IMG/VR virus record: IMGVR_UViG_3300032242_001137
Coordinates: 1-43,877 of that record
From: a virus
DNA: 43,877 nucleotides
Reading direction: 5' to 3' (one strand)
The notes under the pieces are model-generated. The model saw only the letters and a list, made by a program, of their open reading frames with translations, had not been told where the DNA came from and ran no database searches. Of the stretch, positions 2,110 through 37,032 are shown in pieces. The stretch's first letter is position 1; each line of letters starts with the position of its first letter. The translations under genes and the position numbers were made by a program.

Positions 2110-3753
2110 GTGGACAAGACCGACGAAGAAGTCTCCGATCTGATTGAGCTTCGAGACGGCTATTCCCGCATCTTCGAGGAAATCAAAGAGTCTCGTCGAA
2201 CGGCGTCTGGCGTCAATGTCTCGCCCGAGACGAGTCTGCAATGTGCGGCGGTCTTGGCGTGTGTGAGAGTCCTCGCCGAATCGTTGGCGTCGATGCCAAT
2301 GAACGTCTACCGCAGGCTCCCCGGCGGCGGCAAAGAGATCGCCGAAGAGCAGCATCTGCATGAGCTACTCTGCCACCAGCCCAATTCGTGGATGACAGGC
2401 TTTGAGTTCCGAGAATTACTCCAAAGCTGGCTTTTGCTCTGGGGTAATGCCTATGCATTGATCAAGAGCGGCCGGCAGGGCGGCGTGAGCGAACTGATCC
2501 CACTGCATCCATCGCGTATGGAGGTCAAGCGTCTCTCGAACGGCAAGCTCCGCTACTACTACACCGAACCAACCACGCCGATCCAGCCGCAGGTTCATGT
2601 CACTGAGTATCGCCAAGACGAGATTTTTTCGCTTCGCTGGCTTTCGTCCGATGGGGTGACAGGATTTGTGCCGACAGCCCTGTCCCGAGACGCTATTGGG
2701 CTAGCGCGGGCTACTGAACTGCACTCGGGTGCGTTCTTCGGCAACGGCGCGATGCCTGGAACGTACATCGAAACCGACCAGCCGCATAAGCCCGAGGTGC
2801 TCGCCCGCTTCAAAGAGCAGTGGAACGACGCTCACGCCGGCCCGAACAACGCTTACAAGACCGTCGTCATGCCGTTTGGCTTCCATCGGAAGCAGATCGA
2901 GCAACGGAACGACACGGCTATGCTCGTCGAGACTCGGCGCTATCAAGTCGAAGAGGTGGCACGATGCTACCGTGTACCCCCTCATTTGGTGGGTGACTTG
3001 AGTAATGTCCGTTTCAGTACGGTTGAGCAGTCGGCCATCGACTTCGTCACGTTCTCGTTGATCCCGTGGTGCCGACGATGGGAATCGGCCTGCCGCCGCG
3101 ATCTCGTCGTGGACGACAAGCAGTATTTCGTCCAGTTCGACACGAATGCCTTGATGGCCGGCGACTACGCCGCCCGCAGCCAGTTCATTCGCGAGATGGC
3201 GAACCTCGGCGCACTCGACGTGGACGAGATTCGCGCCCAGATTGGGTACAACCCGCTCCCCGACGGCCTCGGCAAGAAGCGGTTCGTGCAAGTCAATATG
3301 CAGTTGCTGGATGCGTTCACGGTGGAGAACCCGAACGGCCAGAAGCCGCAGCCCGAGGGCGACCCTGCCCAAACCGACCAAGAACCGACCAACAACCGAC
3401 CAGAAACCGACCAAGAACCGACCAACGACCCAGATGCTGCCCAGGAGCAGGACGCCAGGACGGTTGCCGGAGCCGAAGTGGTCTTCAAGACGACGCTTCG
3501 ACGCCTCGCTGGAGTCGAAGCCGACGGCGTGCTTGAGCGCAGGAACAAGCCTGAGAAGATGGCGGCGTGGCTTGACACGATGGCCGCCCGCATTCGCGAA
3601 GAACTCCGCGAGTCAGCCCAGGCTACCGGCAGAGATATCGATCAGTTTGCGTCGAATTGGGCGACCCGGTCGCGTGAACTCCTCTTGGAGTGCCACCGAA
3701 GCGGGCAGAAGTATGAGATTGCCACCGAAGGATGGTGCGACAAGCACCTCTAA
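2110..3753 (+). CDS. Portal protein, HK97 family
   Basis: 547 residues with a GTG start two bases after the large terminase stop. The portal core has the usual features: ALACVRVLAESLASMP near residues 48-63, then the WGNAYALI segment and PLHPSRMEV. It forms the dodecameric DNA channel at one capsid vertex and docks the terminase. Beyond the roughly 410-residue core there is an unusual C-terminal extension: a low-complexity Thr/Asp/Gln/Glu/Pro/Asn-rich stretch encoded by a tandem repeat at 3371-3426, then about 95 residues of charged helix. The tail could be an internal scaffold-like segment or a fused separate domain. Confidence 0.95.
   Translation: MDKTDEEVSDLIELRDGYSRIFEEIKESRRTASGVNVSPETSLQCAAVLACVRVLAESLASMPMNVYRRLPGGGKEIAEEQHLHELLCHQPNSWMTGFEFRELLQSWLLLWGNAYALIKSGRQGGVSELIPLHPSRMEVKRLSNGKLRYYYTEPTTPIQPQVHVTEYRQDEIFSLRWLSSDGVTGFVPTALSRDAIGLARATELHSGAFFGNGAMPGTYIETDQPHKPEVLARFKEQWNDAHAGPNNAYKTVVMPFGFHRKQIEQRNDTAMLVETRRYQVEEVARCYRVPPHLVGDLSNVRFSTVEQSAIDFVTFSLIPWCRRWESACRRDLVVDDKQYFVQFDTNALMAGDYAARSQFIREMANLGALDVDEIRAQIGYNPLPDGLGKKRFVQVNMQLLDAFTVENPNGQKPQPEGDPAQTDQEPTNNRPETDQEPTNDPDAAQEQDARTVAGAEVVFKTTLRRLAGVEADGVLERRNKPEKMAAWLDTMAARIREELRESAQATGRDIDQFASNWATRSRELLLECHRSGQKYEIATEGWCDKHL
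3371..3426 (+). repeat. Tandem repeat inside the portal gene (33-bp period)
   Basis: A 23-base block at 3371-3393 recurs exactly at 3404-3426, a 33-base period giving an 11-residue protein repeat built on TDQEPTN. It encodes the flexible linker between the portal core and its C-terminal extension. Such perfect repeats can expand or contract by slippage. Confidence 0.8.
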
Positions 3754-3755
3754 CC

Positions 3756-4223
3756 ATGCCACAACCACTTGAAGGCGTTGTCGAAGCTCTCCAGGCGTCT
3801 CTTGCCCTGCATTGGTCGCAGGCCGAGATGTATGACCTCCAGTCGGTGCATCTGACCCGCTGGGGCTACCCCAAGCTCGGCAAAACGTGGGCGTCATACG
3901 CCAAGGACGAGCGGCACCACATTAAGAAACTCTCGCAGCGTCTTGAATTCTTCGACGTGCAGCCGGAGCCGGCCCACCAGCCGCCCGAAACGTGCCGCCA
4001 CGACTTCGAGGAGGTGCTGGATGACAACTATGAGGCCGACTTGCAGGCCGCAGAGGTCGAAAGGCAGGGATATCTGACGTGCAGCGCCGTCGGAGACAGC
4101 ACTTCGGCCAAGCTTTTCGCCAAACTTCGCGCCGGAAGCGAGGAATCAATGGCGAATATCGAAGCAATTCGACAAGTGATTTCCGACATCGGCCTTGATA
4201 ACTACCTCGCAGCACAGGTCTGA
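3756..4223 (+). CDS. Ferritin/bacterioferritin-like four-helix protein in the head operon
   Basis: 155 residues from ATG 3756, three bases after the portal stop; an in-frame ATG at 3732 lies inside the portal gene and is less likely. The chain resembles bacterioferritin throughout: an N-terminal helix leading to TRWGYPKLGK (Bfr has a NWGL motif there), a second helix with DERHH aligning with the Bfr DEMKH ligand motif, and a C-terminus IGLDNYLAAQ that closely mimics the Bfr ending. By eye, the E51 and H54 ferroxidase ligands are kept, E94 is Asp, but E18, E127 and H130 appear replaced, and the haem-ligand Met is Arg. It is therefore probably a non-haem, possibly catalytically weakened relative. 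Sitting between portal and protease it may be structural. Family call fairly confident; function unknown. Confidence 0.65.
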   Translation: MPQPLEGVVEALQASLALHWSQAEMYDLQSVHLTRWGYPKLGKTWASYAKDERHHIKKLSQRLEFFDVQPEPAHQPPETCRHDFEEVLDDNYEADLQAAEVERQGYLTCSAVGDSTSAKLFAKLRAGSEESMANIEAIRQVISDIGLDNYLAAQV

Positions 4224-4225
4224 CC

Positions 4226-5569
4226 ATGCCAAATATCGGTGAAATTGAGCGCAGAACCATGCTTTCGGAGGCTCAATTTGAGCTTCGGGCCACCGAAAAC
4301 GGCGAAAAACGGGCCGTAATTACGGGCTACGGGGCCGTATTTAACTCCGAAAGTCGCAATCTCGGTGGCTTTACGGAGACAATCCACCCCGCTGCGTTCG
4401 ATAACGTGCTCTCGTCGAATCCCGACGTGATCGGCGTGTTCAATCACGACCGCAATCTGCTCCTGGGGCGAACGAGCAACGGCACGATGAAGTTGACGAC
4501 CGATGCCTACGGCCTCCGTTACGAAATCACTCCCAATACGAATACGAGCATAGGAAAAGACGTGACCGAGTGGGTGCGTGATCGGACAGTGGTCGGATCA
4601 AGCTTCGCCTTCGCGATTTCTAAGGATTCCGGCGACTCTTGGTCTACTGACGCCCGCGGGATGCGTCGTCGCGAGGTGCGAAACATCGCCCTGCTCGAGG
4701 ATGTCGGCCCCGTGGCCCGGCCCGCATATGACTCGTCAAGCGTCGTCGTCAGCCGGCGAGCCATTGAGCTTGCCCTCGGCGATACGAATCGTCCGAATCA
4801 GACGATGGCGAACGCTGCGAAGCGAGGACTGAAGCTCGCCGAACGAAACGACGGCGTCGATGGCGTGCTGGTCGGCATCGCCGAGCGGCTGGCCGCCCGC
4901 GAGATCGTCAGCATCGAAGAAGTCGCCTACCTCGCAGGCGTCTACGAACGCTGTCTGGCGGCGAAGACCGTCGGCTGGTCGGGCACGCCCGCCTGGGTCG
5001 AGTGGCAACTGGCCGGCGGCGACACCGGGCAGAAATGGGTGGCTCGACGAGCCATGTCGGACGCGGCCGAAGAGAAGGCCGAGCGTCTGATCCCGAACGA
5101 AGGTATGGCAGCCTCGGCCCGCCGTGGCCTCAAGCTTCACGAAGCTGGCCGCTCCGGCGACGGCCTCAAGCCCGAGACGGTTGCTCGAGCGCACAAGATC
5201 GCCGCCCGCGACGAACTGACACCCGAGCACGTCCGCGAGATGCGGGCGTGGTTCGCGAGGCACAAGGTTGACCGTCGCCCAGGCTGGGATGCGGCCGGCA
5301 AGGAGACTCCAGGCTTTGTAGCGTGGGAACTCTGGGGCGGCAACGCCGGTCAAGAGTGGAGTGAGTCAAAGGTCAAGATGATGGACAACGACAACGAGGC
5401 CGACGAGGCTCGCGAAGTCGCCGCTGTCGAAGTGCCCGCCGAGATCGTCGAAGAGGCGAAGCCAGTAGTCGTCGAATCGCCGAAGCAGGAACGCGGCGAA
5501 GACTTCGCAGGCAAGATCGCATCGCTCAAGGCGACAATTCTGCGGAACAGTTTGCACGGCAATAGTTAA
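4226..5569 (+). CDS. HK97-type prohead maturation protease with duplicated C-terminal domain
   Basis: 447 residues, long for this family (usually about 150-250). The N-terminal U35/S78-type protease has the ITGYGAVFN opening, the likely catalytic His74 in FNHDRNLLLGR and the nucleophile Ser at 125/126 in VVGSSFAF, followed by the VGPVARPAY motif. It would cleave the capsid N-terminal scaffold region during prohead maturation. Residues 197-273 and 297-379 are two copies of one domain, both beginning RGLKL and ending with a WxLxGGxxGQxW motif. I recall this domain in other phage protease or head genes. The far C-terminus is acidic. It starts two bases after the ferritin-like gene. Confidence 0.9.
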   Translation: MPNIGEIERRTMLSEAQFELRATENGEKRAVITGYGAVFNSESRNLGGFTETIHPAAFDNVLSSNPDVIGVFNHDRNLLLGRTSNGTMKLTTDAYGLRYEITPNTNTSIGKDVTEWVRDRTVVGSSFAFAISKDSGDSWSTDARGMRRREVRNIALLEDVGPVARPAYDSSSVVVSRRAIELALGDTNRPNQTMANAAKRGLKLAERNDGVDGVLVGIAERLAAREIVSIEEVAYLAGVYERCLAAKTVGWSGTPAWVEWQLAGGDTGQKWVARRAMSDAAEEKAERLIPNEGMAASARRGLKLHEAGRSGDGLKPETVARAHKIAARDELTPEHVREMRAWFARHKVDRRPGWDAAGKETPGFVAWELWGGNAGQEWSESKVKMMDNDNEADEAREVAAVEVPAEIVEEAKPVVVESPKQERGEDFAGKIASLKATILRNSLHGNS

Positions 5570-5724: not shown

Positions 5725-7065
5725 ATGGCATCGAATCTCAAGCGTCTTCAGGATCGTGCCGCGGCCATCGCCGCGCGAATGACCGAACTGGCCGCCGTGG
5801 CCGAGCGTTCGGAGGATCAGACCGTCGAACTGCGGAAGCTCTCCGGCGAAGCCGACACCGTCAAGTCTGACCTTGACTTCGAGTCGATGATCGCCGCCAA
5901 GGAGAAGGAACTCCGCTCGGTCGTCGAGGTCGCCGCTCCTGCTGCGGTCGCTGCCCCCGCCCCCGAAGCTCCGAAGACGGAGATTCGTGCGGTCGGCATC
6001 CATCACACCCAGCTTCGCGCGTTCAACGACGGCCCCGAGGCTGTCGAGAGTGCCTACCGCTGCGGCCGATGGCTGCGTGCTCACGCCTTTAAGAACGCCG
6101 ACGACATCCGTTGGTGCAAGGATCACGGCGTTGAGGCCCGCGCTCTCAACGAGGGCAGCAACTCGGCCGGTGGTGCCCTGGTTCCAGAGGAATTTGCTGC
6201 TCGCGTGATAAGGTTAGTAGAAAATTATGGAACCTTCGCAGCGTCGAACGTCGAGAAGATCACGATGTCTCGCGACACGATGATCATCCCGAAGCGTATC
6301 ACGGGCACCTCGGCCTACTTCGTGGGCGAAGGCACTGCGGTCAGCGAGTCGGAGCCGACCTACGCCAACGTGCAGCTTATCGCGAAGAAGCTCGCGGTCG
6401 GCACCCGCATGTCAAGCGAGATCGTGGAAGACGCTCTCGTTTCGATTGCAGATGCAGTCGCGACCGAGTTCGCCACTTCGCTGGCTCTCAAGCAGGATAT
6501 GTGCGGGTGGCTCGGTGACGGCACCAGCACTTACGGCGGCATCTACGGCGTGGTGCCGAAGATCAACGACGGCACTCACACGGCGGGCGTTCTGACGGCC
6601 AGCACGGGTGCCACGGGTTTTGAAAGCTTGACGATCACCGACTTCATCAAGCTCATCGGCAAGATGCCTCTCTACAGTCGTCAAGGCGCTGCTTTTTATA
6701 TTTCTCCTGCCGGTTTCGCTGCTTCGATGGCTCGTCTCCGCTATGCGGCCGGCGGGAATACCGTCGAGCAGATCGGCAGCGGCGTCAACGAGCAGTTCCT
6801 CGGATTTCCGGTGCATCTCGTCCACGTCATGGACAGCACTCTCGGTGCCGACCCGTCGAAGGTCAAGGTGCTGTTCGCGAACCTGGGCCTGTCAAGCATC
6901 TACGCTCGCCGTCGGGACTTCTCGGTCAAGCTGTTCGATCAGGTCTACGCGACCACTGATCAACTTTTGCTCCAAGGAACGTCCAGGTTCGACATTGTTC
7001 ATCACTCGCTTGGCGACAACAGCGTTGCCGGCCCGGTGATTGCTCTCAAGACCGCGGCGTCCTGA
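5725..7065 (+). CDS. Major capsid protein, HK97 fold
   Basis: 446 residues from ATG 5725, which has AGGAG upstream; the upstream in-frame extension is GC-rich leader with hairpins and is rejected. The N-terminal 100 residues are a charged coiled coil plus an Ala/Pro linker, the typical built-in scaffold (delta) domain removed by the protease encoded just upstream. The body has HK97 MCP landmarks: GGALVPEEFAARVI near 150-165, then the conserved spine-helix SSEIVEDA and the C-terminal VYATTDQLLLQGTSRFDI. It forms the icosahedral shell. Confidence 0.95.
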   Translation: MASNLKRLQDRAAAIAARMTELAAVAERSEDQTVELRKLSGEADTVKSDLDFESMIAAKEKELRSVVEVAAPAAVAAPAPEAPKTEIRAVGIHHTQLRAFNDGPEAVESAYRCGRWLRAHAFKNADDIRWCKDHGVEARALNEGSNSAGGALVPEEFAARVIRLVENYGTFAASNVEKITMSRDTMIIPKRITGTSAYFVGEGTAVSESEPTYANVQLIAKKLAVGTRMSSEIVEDALVSIADAVATEFATSLALKQDMCGWLGDGTSTYGGIYGVVPKINDGTHTAGVLTASTGATGFESLTITDFIKLIGKMPLYSRQGAAFYISPAGFAASMARLRYAAGGNTVEQIGSGVNEQFLGFPVHLVHVMDSTLGADPSKVKVLFANLGLSSIYARRRDFSVKLFDQVYATTDQLLLQGTSRFDIVHHSLGDNSVAGPVIALKTAAS

Positions 7066-27820: not shown

Positions 27821-28581
27821 TGCCCCGTGCCAATTACGGCTTTCGCGGCGATGCCCTAACGCCTGCCGCCGCCATCGCGGCTGGGGCCACGGTCACTGGG
27901 CAGGACTACCTCTACAACGTCGGCCTCGCGACGATCACGACTCTGACGCCGCCAGGGCAAGTTGCCGGTGTATCCGCTACCGCTGGAAGCGGACAAGTCT
28001 CCTTGACGTGGACGGCACCGTCAGCAGGGTCGTCGGCGATTACTTCTTATGACGTGGAGGTCACGCCTTCCGGCGGCTCGGCGACCGTGACGAACACGGG
28101 CAGCGCCTCGGCGAGCTACACGGCGACTGGACTGACGAACGGCACCGTCTACTCAATCCGCGTGAGGGCGAACAACGGCACGGCCGGCGACGGCGACTGG
28201 AGCACGGCGGCCACGGCGACCCCATCGGGCACGGCGAACTTCAAGGCTCCGACCACCGCGTGGACGAGCACCTTCGGGGCCACAACCAGCAGCAGTGGCT
28301 CGGCGGCAACGCCATATGCAGCGTCCGTCACGGGCTTCGACTTCACTTCGGCCGCGACGATCACAACGGCAAGGAGCGGCACGCTCAGAGTGACCGGCAC
28401 GGTAACCAGCGACAGTGCGTTTCAGTTGATTTCGGGATCGACCGTCCTCGGAACAGTGGGCGACTCAAGCGGCAACTCAGGGGCGACGATCAACTTCTCT
28501 GTGTCCGTTGTCGTTGACTCTATCCTCTACATCGACTGCACCTACGCGACAATCAGCAATCTTCGCGTCTGGCTGGTCTAA
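27820..28581 (+). CDS. Fibronectin type III-containing virion protein
   Basis: 253 residues. After an N-terminal anchor of about 45 residues, an Fn3 domain spans roughly 46-140 (PGQVAGVSATAGSGQVSLTW, then VYSIRVRANNGTAGDG). The C-terminal 100 residues form a second beta domain with TTSSSGSAATPYAASVTGFD. Fn3 domains on virions often aid surface or carbohydrate binding. The gene converges on the integrase and overlaps its end by four bases. Confidence 0.75.
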   Translation: MPRANYGFRGDALTPAAAIAAGATVTGQDYLYNVGLATITTLTPPGQVAGVSATAGSGQVSLTWTAPSAGSSAITSYDVEVTPSGGSATVTNTGSASASYTATGLTNGTVYSIRVRANNGTAGDGDWSTAATATPSGTANFKAPTTAWTSTFGATTSSSGSAATPYAASVTGFDFTSAATITTARSGTLRVTGTVTSDSAFQLISGSTVLGTVGDSSGNSGATINFSVSVVVDSILYIDCTYATISNLRVWLV

Positions 28582-29462
28582 ACCACTTTCGGCAGCACGC
28601 TCGGCGCAGGCACTCCTGGGGTGACGATTCGCGGGTCTAGGTATTTCCGCGTGACGGCAGGCGACGAGTGATCAAGCAGACGTTGGGCCGAGCCGCCGGC
28701 AGCCTCATAGAAACTCGCGGTCGTCTTTCTGATGCGATGGAATTTGCACTTCCGGTCTGACGGCAATCCTGCCCGCACCAAAATCTTCTTCAAATACCGC
28801 CAGACGCATGTGCGGTGGTGATCCCACGGCAGAGCGAAGTCGTCGGGGGTGCGACGAACCGTTGCCAGGGCATCAGCGCACTCTTGGCTGATCTCGCGGT
28901 AGATGTCGCGGCGTCTGCCCTTTCTCTGCTCTGCCCGAAAGATCACCGATAACTCGCGAACGTCGGAGCAACGAAGCTCAAGCATGGAAGAAATACGTTC
29001 GCCCGTGTCATAGGCGAGAAGCAACAAAGCTCTCCAAACCGCAGCGGCTGGGAACTTGCCGACGAACCCCGGCTCCGCAGCGGCCGATGTCATAAGTCGC
29101 TGCATCTCGTCGATGAGCCACGCCTCGGGCACCCGCTCTGGCACGTTGACCCTATGCACCGCAGGCCACGTCTCGCACATCTTCCGCTTCGAGCAGAAGC
29201 CCCAGAGGGCCAGAATCTGAGCGCGATCCTTGGCGGCGGTTGCCGGTGCCCATCTGCGGACTCGCCACGCCAAGAAACGAGCGACCGCTAACTCTTCCAA
29301 ATCTCCAGTCTCGGGGGGTCTTCCAAGGAATTCCCCCCAAGACCGGAGCGTGTACCCATAGAGGGTGATCGTCCTGTCGCTGACGCCTGTCAGCGGGGCA
29401 TAGAAGTCACGCAGAACATTGTGCAAAAGCATGGCGAGTGGCTCCTTCAAAAGAAGTAGCAC
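28578..29462 (-). CDS. int: Tyrosine recombinase (phage integrase)
   Basis: 294 residues from ATG 29462 (an internal Met11 is an alternative start). The N-terminal SAM-like core-binding domain spans roughly 15-110. The catalytic domain shows Arg156 in DTGERISSM, a basic beta-hairpin EQRKGRRR with a Lys near 181, the HRIR box (His242-Arg245), His265 in LLDHSS and the nucleophile Tyr274 in TRKYLDP. It would catalyse site-specific integration and excision. It lies on the opposite strand to the fibre genes and converges with them. The att core cannot be identified from this window. Confidence 0.95.
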   Translation of the reverse strand: MLLLLKEPLAMLLHNVLRDFYAPLTGVSDRTITLYGYTLRSWGEFLGRPPETGDLEELAVARFLAWRVRRWAPATAAKDRAQILALWGFCSKRKMCETWPAVHRVNVPERVPEAWLIDEMQRLMTSAAAEPGFVGKFPAAAVWRALLLLAYDTGERISSMLELRCSDVRELSVIFRAEQRKGRRRDIYREISQECADALATVRRTPDDFALPWDHHRTCVWRYLKKILVRAGLPSDRKCKFHRIRKTTASFYEAAGGSAQRLLDHSSPAVTRKYLDPRIVTPGVPAPSVLPKVV

Positions 29463-33176: not shown

Positions 33177-33394
33177 TCACTTGCCGCTGGGCCGGCGGCG
33201 CACTCGCTGGTTTGTTCGTCCGTTGTCCAGCGAGCCGGCAGCCAATGCCTGGGAGTGGCTTCGTAACCCCAGGAACTCGCCGCAGAACCTCGCGTCTACC
33301 TCTCGCGAGCCTGCGGCGGGGCATTTGCCCCTGCGGGGCCGTTGCAGCGGCTCCGCAGGGGATTTCTTGCACACCCTAATTCATGGAGGACGGT
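33177..33394 (+). other. Structured non-coding gap with several inverted repeats
   Basis: No convincing reading frame. CGCTGG...CCAGCG and flanking GCCGG...CCGGC segments form one stem in the first 75 bases, and CCTGG...CCAGG a second near 33250-33270. A third, strong hairpin lies at 33328-33361 (separate entry). The region may hold a terminator and a processed leader or small RNA. Confidence 0.4.
33328..33368 (+). terminator. Strong hairpin, probable terminator
   Basis: CCCCTGCGG (33328-33336) pairs with CCGCAGGGG (33353-33361). Inside, GCCG and CGGC add four more pairs around loop TTGCAG. The downstream tract ATTTCTT is only partly T-rich, so termination may be incomplete. Confidence 0.5.
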
Positions 33395-35194
33395 ATGGCG
33401 TTTGAGTTCAATGGCGACCGGCTGTTCAAGGAAGCGGCGATTGCACAGTCCAAGGGGTGCAAGATCGTTCGCGACTACGGAATCCTCCCCGACGGCCAGT
33501 GCGCCTGCGGCAACCCCGATCACCGTGCCGGCGGCGCAGCGGAGAAGCAGTGCGGCAAGCACCCCCGCGGGCTGCAATGGGGCGACAAGGCCGCCGCCGA
33601 CGAAGACACGCTCTGGCGCTGGGTCGAAGAGGCGAAGGATACGGGCGTGCCGTTCAACATCGGCATCCTCCTCGGCCCCCGCAGCGGCGTCATCGACATG
33701 GAGTGGGACGACGAGAAAGCCAAGGCATACGCCGAGACGATGAATCTCGTTGACATCGAAACGCCGACCTACATCTCCGGCCGATCAGAGCACCGACTCT
33801 TCAAGTGGGATGATCGGCTCGCAGGGTGCCAAGCAGTCGTGAAGCCCGGTGGACTCGAGGTGCGGCTCGGCACTGGCGACCTTGATGCACAGAGCGTCCT
33901 GCCGCCGTCGTGGCACTGGAGCGGAATCCAATACCGATGGAAAGAAGGGCTGTCTCTTGAAGACGTGCCGTTCGCTCCGCTGCCAGAGAACCTTCTGCGG
34001 GCGATCATCAACGACGTTGACATCAAGCAGAGGACATCGACATCGCTCTCGTCGCGGACGGTGCTCCACGGCGATGTGCAGGAGGGCAGCAGGCACCCGT
34101 ACCTCTTGAGCTATGTCACGTCGAAGGTGTTCTCGCACTCGCGGTATCTGAGCGGCGCGGCCCAGGCTGATATGCTCATGGAGATTGAACTGGTCAACGA
34201 GCGACGGTGCAAGCCGCCGAAGTCGCCCCAGGAGATTCGCACGCTCTTCTATTCGTGCGTGGACTATCGCCGAAAGCTGGAGGCCAGCGGCGAGTCTCTT
34301 CCGCGGTCGGATCAAGAACTGGAACTGGCCGCTGAGAAGATCGCCAAGGCCGGCGAGAGGCAGGAGGCACCCGTCAGCGGGTATGCCATGCACGGCCTCA
34401 AGTGGGCGGCTGTTGATGGCTGGAAGGACGGCGAGTGGCTGCCGGGTGACTGGAAGATTCAAGTGGTCTGCGGCGACCCCGCTGAAATCATTCTCTGCGT
34501 TCCCCAGTGGAAGAACACGCCGTGCAAGGGGGAGATCGCATTCTCCTTCGCGGAGTTTGAATCGGCGAAGCTCGTCGCCAAGAAGATATTCGAGGCCACC
34601 CGCCGGGTGATCCTACACGGCGACATCACCGAGTGGCAGACGATCTGGCGGGGGCAGGACGGCAACGGCAAGCGGCCGAAGCTCTTGGGGATGTTTGAGA
34701 AACTGTTCATTGAGAAGAGCAAGGCCGACGACATCCACGTCGGCACCTCCAGCCTGCGTTACGCCACGCTGTCTGGCTATCTGCTCGAGGTGCTCTCCCG
34801 AGCCAAGCAGGCCAAGGAGGAGAAGCCCGAGCCGGATAAGACTGGCAGGCCGAAGTGGGTGAAGCCCGACGAGCTATGGCTGGGCTGGCAGAAGACCTGG
34901 GAGGAGATCGGCCGTGCCCACGACGTGGCGGCGGGGGAGCGCATTCGCATCAAACGGATGCTCTGCGACCGGATGAAGGTCAAGGACTTCAAAGAGGGCC
35001 GGCACAACTTCGCCGGCACCAAGCGGGCCTATGTCATCTTCACGCCCGAGTGGCTGGCGGCCATCGAAAACCTCTCCCACGGGGTCGTGGACGACTTTCC
35101 ACCTAATACGGGGGAAACGCCCAATGAAAACGGAGGTTTTGACAGCGCCGAGGCCCGGATTCCCCGGATTGCTTCGCAAAGTGTTGCTGGATAA
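33395..35194 (+). CDS. PrimPol-type DNA primase (bifunctional primase/polymerase domain)
   Basis: 599 residues from ATG 33395, chosen because GGAGG lies eight bases before it; an in-frame ATG at 33383 overlaps that site. The N-terminal prim-pol domain has the zinc-like CACG near 36-39 and C-x-KHPRG near 53-58, the acidic catalytic pair in IDMEWDD near 100-106, SGRSEHRLFKWDD near 128, and GLEVRLGTGD with VLPPSWHW. The second half carries a helical and a winged-helix-like region. It would synthesise primers, and perhaps DNA, at the phage origin. No AAA+ helicase is fused; helicases are separate genes. Confidence 0.85.
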   Translation: MAFEFNGDRLFKEAAIAQSKGCKIVRDYGILPDGQCACGNPDHRAGGAAEKQCGKHPRGLQWGDKAAADEDTLWRWVEEAKDTGVPFNIGILLGPRSGVIDMEWDDEKAKAYAETMNLVDIETPTYISGRSEHRLFKWDDRLAGCQAVVKPGGLEVRLGTGDLDAQSVLPPSWHWSGIQYRWKEGLSLEDVPFAPLPENLLRAIINDVDIKQRTSTSLSSRTVLHGDVQEGSRHPYLLSYVTSKVFSHSRYLSGAAQADMLMEIELVNERRCKPPKSPQEIRTLFYSCVDYRRKLEASGESLPRSDQELELAAEKIAKAGERQEAPVSGYAMHGLKWAAVDGWKDGEWLPGDWKIQVVCGDPAEIILCVPQWKNTPCKGEIAFSFAEFESAKLVAKKIFEATRRVILHGDITEWQTIWRGQDGNGKRPKLLGMFEKLFIEKSKADDIHVGTSSLRYATLSGYLLEVLSRAKQAKEEKPEPDKTGRPKWVKPDELWLGWQKTWEEIGRAHDVAAGERIRIKRMLCDRMKVKDFKEGRHNFAGTKRAYVIFTPEWLAAIENLSHGVVDDFPPNTGETPNENGGFDSAEARIPRIASQSVAG

Positions 35195-35267
35195 AGACTT
35201 AGGTGGTACGCGGAATTTCGGGAAATCCGGGGAATCCCCGGACGGGCGGCAAAAAGTTCAGAAGTAA
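35124..35267 (+). CDS. Possible 47-residue protein overlapping the primase end
   Basis: From ATG 35124 (after GGGGGAAA) the frame reads MKTEVLTAPRPGFPGLLRKV and ends with basic, Gly-rich residues at 35267. It overlaps the primase by 71 bases. Composition is plausible but there is no supporting homology; it could be a shadow. Confidence 0.25.
   Translation: MKTEVLTAPRPGFPGLLRKVLLDKDLGGTRNFGKSGESPDGRQKVQK
35226..35242 (+). promoter_or_regulatory. Short perfect hairpin between primase and UvrD-like helicase
   Basis: TCCGGGG and CCCCGGA pair perfectly with an AAT triloop. No T-run follows directly. The surrounding gap (35195-35340) also holds CCCC...GGGG just before the next start. Confidence 0.4.
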
Positions 35268-35340
35268 AGCGGTTTTTGTGGACGGAAAATCAAGGTTTAC
35301 CCATCTTAAACCCCGCCAGTAGGGGGAAAGGAGTCCGAGA

Positions 35341-37032
35341 ATGGCTCAGTTGCAGGCTTTGCGAGCGGTCGGTTCGGCAGGCACTGGAAAAACGACGCTT
35401 TTGGTCAACACCGCTTGTAAGGCTCTGGAGAGGCCGGAGACGGGCGGTAATCCTTTTGCCATAGGATTCTCGACTTTCACCCGTGCGGCCCGCAGCGAGG
35501 CTGCTGGGCGTGCTGCCGACGCTTGGGGGATGCAGAAGAGCGAACTGGAGCGGGAGGGCTGGTTCCGAACTGCACACTCGGTAGCCTATCGGCAGTTGGG
35601 CATTGCCAAGGGTGAGATCATCGGCGGCGGCAAGGCCGACAACGAGTGGGTCAGCAACGCCATAGATTCTTCCGTCGCCTATTGTGCGGACGACGACGCC
35701 GAGGGCGGGATCGGCATTTACACGGGCGATCCGGTCGCGGCGATGTCCCTCAACTTCTGGTCGCTTGCCAGGAGCATGTGCCGCCCGCTCCGCGAGGTCG
35801 TCGAGGAAGCCTACGGCTGGGACGCCGAATGCCCCGACGCCGAGGAGGTGATTCGACGTGTCAGCCTCTATGAGTCGGCCAAGCGGCTCGAGAACCGCAG
35901 CGACTTCACCGATCTGCTCTCACGGTTCGTCGGCATCCGGCACAATCCGGCCGGCGGCCCCGAGGAGGTCACCCCCGAGGGGCTAGTTCCCGACAGCATC
36001 GTCGGCTGGATTTTCGACGAGGCCCAAGATGCCAGCCGCCTGCTGGACATGGCCTGCCGCCGTCTGGTCACGGGAGATGCGGTCAAGTGGGCGTGGCTGG
36101 TCGGCGATCCGTTTCAAGTTCTTTATTCGTGGGCGGGAGCGTCCAGCGAGTTCTTCATGGGGTGGAAGGTTGACCGTCAGGAGATCATGCCCAAGAGCTA
36201 CCGCTGTGCGAAGCCGATCCTGCAACTCGGTGAGGACTGCCTCCAGAGGCTGACCAAGGGCTACTGGAACCGGGGAGTCGAAGCGGCCGACCACGACGGC
36301 GAAATCGTCGAAAGCGAAAACTTCGAGGACGATCTGAATGATCTGACGCCCGACAAGGAAACGCTGGTGATCGCCAGGACGAACCGTCACGTCGGGAAGA
36401 TCGCCATGATCCTTGACGACTGCGGCGTGCCCTTCAGGAAGATCAAGGCGAAGCAGGGGAGCTACAACCGTGACATCGGCATGACGGGCCTCTGGAAGCT
36501 CCAGCACGGCCAGCCGGCCAGCAAGGACGAGTGGTCGGAGGCCATTGATTTGCTACCGAGTGCCACAATACGCAGCAAGAAAGAGGGCCGCGAAGAGAAG
36601 ACGTGGCTGGTTCGGGGGGCGAAGGCACAGTGGAATCGGCAGGGGAAGGATCACTATGACGTTCTGTTCCCAGAGGAACTCGGCGATGTCGGCGCGACCG
36701 AGCATCTCCGCGAGAAGATCGCCACCGGCTCCTGGGGCGAACTTATCGACGGCGGCACCGCGTGGTGCAGGGCAGCGAAGGAGTGGGGCATCGACGCCGT
36801 GTCGAACCCGAAGATTCGTATCGGCACGATTCACTCGGCCAAAGGCATGGAGGCCGACACCGTCATCCTGCTCACCAGCGTCGGCCGCCGCATCCGCGAT
36901 GGGGAGGAGCGGAGCGAGGAGCGTCACGACGAAGAGCGTCGAATCGAGTATGTCGCCGCCACTCGAGCAAAGAGCAAGCTGATCGTGGCCCACGACCCCC
37001 GCGAAGCCTTCAGGATGGAGATGCCCATATGA
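35341..37032 (+). CDS. UvrD/Rep-like superfamily 1 helicase
   Basis: 563 residues. Motif I GSAGTGKTT at 11-19, motif II DEAQD near 224, motif III GDPFQVLYSWAGA just after, motif IV KSYRC, motif V TIHSAKGMEADTV and motif VI IEYVAATRAKSKL are all present in order, so the enzyme looks intact. UvrD-type proteins unwind DNA 3' to 5' and may support phage replication or recombination. AAAGGAG precedes the start. It overlaps the next gene by ATGA. Confidence 0.9.
   Translation: MAQLQALRAVGSAGTGKTTLLVNTACKALERPETGGNPFAIGFSTFTRAARSEAAGRAADAWGMQKSELEREGWFRTAHSVAYRQLGIAKGEIIGGGKADNEWVSNAIDSSVAYCADDDAEGGIGIYTGDPVAAMSLNFWSLARSMCRPLREVVEEAYGWDAECPDAEEVIRRVSLYESAKRLENRSDFTDLLSRFVGIRHNPAGGPEEVTPEGLVPDSIVGWIFDEAQDASRLLDMACRRLVTGDAVKWAWLVGDPFQVLYSWAGASSEFFMGWKVDRQEIMPKSYRCAKPILQLGEDCLQRLTKGYWNRGVEAADHDGEIVESENFEDDLNDLTPDKETLVIARTNRHVGKIAMILDDCGVPFRKIKAKQGSYNRDIGMTGLWKLQHGQPASKDEWSEAIDLLPSATIRSKKEGREEKTWLVRGAKAQWNRQGKDHYDVLFPEELGDVGATEHLREKIATGSWGELIDGGTAWCRAAKEWGIDAVSNPKIRIGTIHSAKGMEADTVILLTSVGRRIRDGEERSEERHDEERRIEYVAATRAKSKLIVAHDPREAFRMEMPI

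Follow-up and report, generated by a model that had tools for sequence, protein, structure and literature searches.

A bacterioferritin-derived phage protein family with a remodelled metal site, haem pocket and Bfd dock

The window, a stretch of 43,877 nucleotides of viral DNA, carries between its portal and prohead protease genes an open reading frame (positions 3756–4223, plus strand) for a 155-residue ferritin-like protein which is derived from bacterioferritin (Bfr) and belongs to a phage family with a consistently altered metal site, haem pocket and Bfd dock. The gene is best read as accessory phage cargo, of the moron or auxiliary metabolic gene type, encoding a Bfr-derived haem-free protein. 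Iron control in phage infection is known mainly through indirect effects, and this ferritin-like family provides a concrete, recurrent and conserved protein open to expression and testing, while the consistent rewiring of so well understood a protein leads to clear predictions.

Bacterioferritin homology and the phage family

The frame opens with an ATG at 3756 and ends with a stop at 4221–4223; a further in-frame ATG at 3732 falls within the portal gene, and the MP... start at 3756 is the one common to the relatives. The Pfam Ferritin model PF00210 is matched over residues 10–142 (E = 2.5e-11; 44.1 bits against a gathering cut-off of 24.5), as it is by all 31 aligned family members. The top match of a single-sequence PDB search is bacterioferritin 4am2 (E = 2.2e-11, residues 8–151), and the family profile aligns with Bfr 5zur over residues 6–155 (E = 2.9e-21), both without gaps, the latter alignment giving full-length Bfr homology with no large insertion or deletion; the PDB matches of the profile up to E = 0.01 carry the names bacterioferritin, ferroxidase or ferritin. 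The initial annotation had noticed a Bfr-like pattern running through to an IGLDNYLAAQ ending and had placed the protein with the ferritins, and both observations hold: the ending is the normal Bfr C-terminal segment, the alignments to PDB entries rule out a chance similarity at the C-terminus, and by sequence the protein is a true ferritin/Bfr homologue. To its likeness to known Bfrs (TIGR00754; PDB 4am2, 5zur, 2fkz, 1bcf) may be added the retention of Bfr residues Y25, W35 and R61 along with much of the C-terminal segment. With no gaps in the alignment, E. coli Bfr numbers are obtained by subtracting one from the window residue number. Under the NCBIfam Bfr equivalog TIGR00754 the window protein scores 37.6 bits, and relatives scanned singly score up to 59.3, below the cut-off of 125.55. 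PHROGs holds no family for the protein; the Dps family models give marginal matches below cut-off in one relative and no grounds for Dps membership, and the best EncB match has E = 0.006, again below cut-off.

The family set comprises 67 distinct homologues from phages, no less than 43% identical to one another, which were compared in the same alignment with 10 ordinary Bfrs from plasmid and phage records, to which they are 20–32% identical. A search with the capsid protein yielded 80 loci, supplemented by others found through the ferritin itself, and 80 of the 124 loci from a ferritin profile search were kept. The phage family forms one clade separate from ordinary Bfr in the tree (support 100/100). 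Two scans of bacterial genome contigs with strict peptide patterns, one from the ferritin and one from the capsid alignment, returned no relatives. MT835709.1 and OQ572407.1 were considered as phage carriers of Bfr and rejected, given their bacterial-type surroundings and the position of their Bfrs among the ordinary ones in the tree; both look like host chromosome, not phage. By our own reading of the frames, OQ572407.1 contains argininosuccinate synthase- and dihydroorotase-like ORFs, and MT835709.1 a Bfd-like ORF just upstream of its Bfr.

The head genes of the window, all on the plus strand, are those of the terminase small subunit at 10–600 (phrog_83, 1.6e-24), the terminase large subunit at 575–2107 (phrog_9, 8e-147), the portal protein at 2110–3753 (phrog_12, 1e-100), the prohead protease at 4226–5569 (phrog_80, 4e-40; Peptidase_S78 PF04586, 2.8e-39) and the major capsid protein at 5725–7065 (phrog_10, 1e-37; PF05065, 3.5e-28), and the phrog_12 and phrog_80 neighbours confirm the position between portal and protease given in the initial annotation. 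Beyond its S78 domain the protease frame contains two repeats of about 90 residues with a weak LPD22 match, and in four relatives (L004, L006, L009 and L010) the protease matches are interrupted by roughly 600–700 bases of extra sequence. The two terminase genes overlap in the window, while their matches lie about 870 bases apart in L004, L005, L144, L163 and L170, where a gene has probably been inserted. A tyrosine integrase is encoded at 28578–29462 on the minus strand (PF00589, 6e-12), so the window phage is probably temperate; bacterial genome scans with strict patterns returned no lysogen of it.

Metal site, haem pocket and Bfd dock

The Bfr ferroxidase centre has E18 and H54 as terminal ligands on Fe1, E94 and H130 on Fe2, and E51 and E127 as bridges (PMC4771812). 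Among the ordinary Bfrs compared, E18, E51 and E94 are present in 10/10, H54 and H130 in 9/10 and E127 in 8/10, and not one of the 67 phage proteins has the six-ligand centre complete. All 67 present H19, E52, H55, D/E95, S128 and S/A/G131 in its place, that is, E18 is replaced by His, E127 by Ser and H130 by Ser, Ala or Gly. The corresponding codons in the window (plus strand) are His19 at 3810–3812, E52-R53-x-H55 at 3909–3920 (Bfr E51, haem ligand M52 and H54), Asp95 at 4038–4040 (Bfr E94; D or E in every member) and S128 to S131 at 4137–4148, where E127 and H130 are lost. The initial annotation had rightly read E51 and H54 as kept, Asp as standing for E94 and the haem Met as lost (R53), and had overlooked that E18 is now His19.

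Since a different residue set, H/E/H/[D/E], is invariant across the 67 proteins, random decay is excluded, and a decaying pseudogene is ruled out by these invariant ligands together with dN/dS values of 0.02–0.21 within the ferritin allele classes, which mark purifying selection. From the residues present, the remodelled H/E/H/[D/E] site seems suited to a single metal and not to a di-iron centre. With both E127 and H130 lost, ferroxidase activity is predicted to be weak or absent, and it is doubtful that a ferric core is stored; Zn or Mn might be bound instead, or the site might have a purely structural role. A bacterial case of a partly lost site occurs in Azospirillum (NZ_CP029356.1, 210568–211538), where, of two adjacent bfr genes, the one that was read encodes T and D at the ferroxidase positions E127 and H130.

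The same invariance would take on another meaning if the ferritin fold had been turned into a metalloenzyme, with a mononuclear Fe (or Mn/Zn) catalytic site of two histidines and one or two carboxylates. Its task would have nothing to do with storing iron, and might be, for instance, to catalyse an oxidation or to defend against peroxide or superoxide. H19, E52 and H55, present in 67/67, resemble a facial-triad ligand set, and a second site could be made from the phage-specific invariants R81 and H82 with H32, E64 and E102, the last three being without counterpart in ordinary Bfrs. We nevertheless regard such an enzyme as very unlikely, for the full-length Bfr architecture is retained and no enzyme gene was found to adjoin the ferritin gene in both of the genome slots described below.

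The alterations extend to the haem pocket, where the position of the haem ligand Met52 is occupied by Arg in 64/67 phage proteins and by Met in none. N23 is replaced by Glu in 60/67, and polar or small residues predominate at the F26 (Q/D/E) and I49 (E/A/K) positions, such that the apolar haem-pocket residues are lost and the surrounding pocket is polar. In P. aeruginosa Bfr, Bfd docks at L68, P69, N70, Q72, L78, L79, G80 and E81 (PMC12261321). None of the phage proteins has Leu at position 68, position 79 is Pro in 63/67, and positions 80 and 81 are invariably Arg and His (67/67 each), followed directly by an invariant Asp; this R81-H82-D83 motif of the window protein (Bfr positions 80–82) is encoded at 3996–4004, plus strand. 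With haem-pocket and Bfd-dock residues both replaced, iron release by the known haem- and Bfd-driven route is unlikely.

That the haem and Bfd-dock positions are exactly those altered would also suit a modifier of host ferritin, in which subunits from the phage join those of host Bfr or Ftn in one cage and dilute its ferroxidase centres, haem and Bfd docks, iron being thereby trapped in the host store or kept out of it. Hetero-oligomeric ferritins provide a precedent: in P. aeruginosa FtnA and BfrB together build the 24-mer Bfr (PMC12261321), animal ferritins mix H and L chains, and a subunit lacking the full ferroxidase centre can be functional when its cage is a mixed one (L chain of animals, PMC4771812; bacterial, PMC12261321), while blocking of the Bfr–Bfd interaction traps iron and brings about iron limitation (PMC12261321). 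The Azospirillum tandem pair, with its T127 and D130 subunit, and the swapping of alleles described below, which would suit different host partners, point in the same direction. In contrast to these systems the altered subunit here is phage-borne and its co-assembly with host subunits hypothetical; moreover, co-assembly requires compatible interfaces, and identity to the ordinary Bfrs compared is low. We consider a modifier of host ferritin unlikely.

Gene loss, allele exchange and a second genomic slot

Among 72 distinct portal–protease junctions the ferritin gene is present in 62 and absent from 10. Three of the latter look like separate losses, two of them with in-frame scars. In L049, which shares 91–92% identity with the window in its portal and capsid proteins, the gene is cleanly absent and a single near-copy remains of the direct repeat ACCATGCCA, which in the window occurs at the start of the ferritin gene (3753–3761, plus strand) and again at the start of the protease (4223–4231, plus strand). 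In L076 the portal frame continues into a ferritin-like tail (...DQIGLDNYLVNKVQE), and in L095 a ferritin-like start (MPQPDN) continues in frame into the protease; in the other seven gene-less phages portal and protease adjoin or overlap. Alleles have also been exchanged, for ferritins about 50% identical to one another are found in phages whose flanks stay 82–96% identical. The ferritin gene of L102, for example, shares only about 65% DNA and 50% protein identity with those of near relatives of the window, against 82–96% for its portal and protease flanks, and the tree places it with the other allele class. In its patchy presence, clean gain or loss, conserved coding and cellular homologue the ferritin gene shows the features of an accessory cargo gene (moron or AMG).

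A second location is found in 11 loci, representing seven distinct proteins, with none of the head genes of the window near the ferritin gene, which here comes after genes for a Prim-Pol and a UvrD-type helicase, in that order, and is itself followed directly by a DNA methylase gene in L133 and L134. The window has a homologous pair at 33383–37032 (plus strand), with no ferritin gene beside it, whose Prim-Pol (33383–35191) and helicase (35341–37029) are respectively 26–30% and 35–37% identical to their second-slot homologues. Each of six replication-slot contigs tested has one ferritin; in G017 the portal gene lies at 14 kb and the ferritin at 78 kb. The portal domain of this phage (residues 48–485) opens a 2389-residue ORF (L183:5116-12285), the remainder of which has no Pfam match. 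In a twelfth locus, L178, the ferritin gene is near an integrase. Five of the replication-slot proteins fall within the window's class in the tree (99/91) and two elsewhere with weaker support. The occurrence of the same subfamily in the replication module implies that the ferritin gene is not tied to the head cluster; the portal–protease position put forward for checking in relatives is the usual one (62/72 junctions), and seven distinct relatives depart from it.

An essential part of the head is ruled out by the junctions without the gene, the apparent losses and the replication-module location. The idea of the initial annotation that the protein was recruited to the head, structurally or as an internal component, is likewise disfavoured by the ten gene-less junctions with their three apparent losses, the allele swaps, the replication-module copies and the lack of a terminal extension. 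A virion cargo or internal head protein, packed in the procapsid and either shielding the DNA from iron and peroxide or bringing iron to the next host, would account for the place kept between portal and protease at 62 of 72 junctions, and HK97-fold encapsulins are known to carry ferritin-like cargo, including a proposed Bfr cargo (PMC8346489); a trace of host Bfr (two peptides), which may be contamination, was also reported in purified AXL1 virions (PMC9206674). However, the gene is missing at 10/72 junctions, some with loss scars, related phages carry the same subfamily in their replication module, and the protein has no N- or C-terminal extension past Bfr length, whereas encapsulin Bfr cargo is recognised through C-terminal targeting peptides. 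The resemblance to encapsulin systems (EncB, Flp and Bfr cargo; PMC8346489) lies in a ferritin-like gene beside an HK97-fold shell gene, but the shell gene in this case encodes a phage capsid protein (PF05065) and is accompanied by protease, portal and terminase, and neither an encapsulin shell gene nor the C-terminal targeting peptide of Family 1 cargo is present. We judge a function in the virion to be quite unlikely; the family also shows that location in a head operon is in itself no evidence for such a role.

Proposed function and relation to known systems

We propose that the protein forms a haem-free, Bfd-independent ferritin-type cage which, inside the infected cell, binds a metal, be it iron or a different one, as the product of an accessory phage gene, and we give equal weight to this proposal being right and being wrong. 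A cage is suggested by the conserved length, the gapless alignment and the retained C-terminal segment N149-Y150-L151. It would assemble in the host cytoplasm during infection, and in each subunit two histidines and one or two carboxylates would hold a single metal ion, most probably Fe(II), where Fe1 lies in Bfr. Iron sequestered or buffered by such a cage would be beyond recovery by host Bfd and by electron transfer through haem, and the phage might benefit from less Fenton damage or from control of the free iron pool during its replication; the head-operon position would be no more than a convenient slot for expression. Against this accessory iron cage stands the fact that 59 of the 67 distinct proteins sit in the head cluster, so that a link to the head is possible. 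In a bolder and more tentative form, which we think rather improbable, the family would be a phage-dedicated ferritin branch with a mononuclear two-His, carboxylate site and a rebuilt haem pocket and Bfd dock, whose cage, either by itself or with host Bfr subunits included, would act as a one-way iron trap used by phages to control iron during infection. The other suggestion of the initial annotation was an iron or oxidative-stress protein packaged in virions; of this, the iron or oxidative-stress role is likely.

Manipulation of host iron has been reported for another phage, SPO1 Gp49 upregulating host haem synthesis and iron metabolism (PMC10531801). In the open-licence literature searched we found no description of a phage family with this remodelled site. 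One earlier report places a virus-encoded bfr among the auxiliary metabolic genes of a vOTU whose predicted host belongs to the Bathyarchaeia; this, like the genes studied here, is a viral Bfr gene under purifying selection (PMC10904782). That gene was described as Thermoproteota-derived and Fe2+-oxidising (PMC10904782), whereas the present family belongs to one phage group, occupies fixed slots and has the remodelled site in 67/67 members. Our impression is that the samples carrying the family are freshwater ones.
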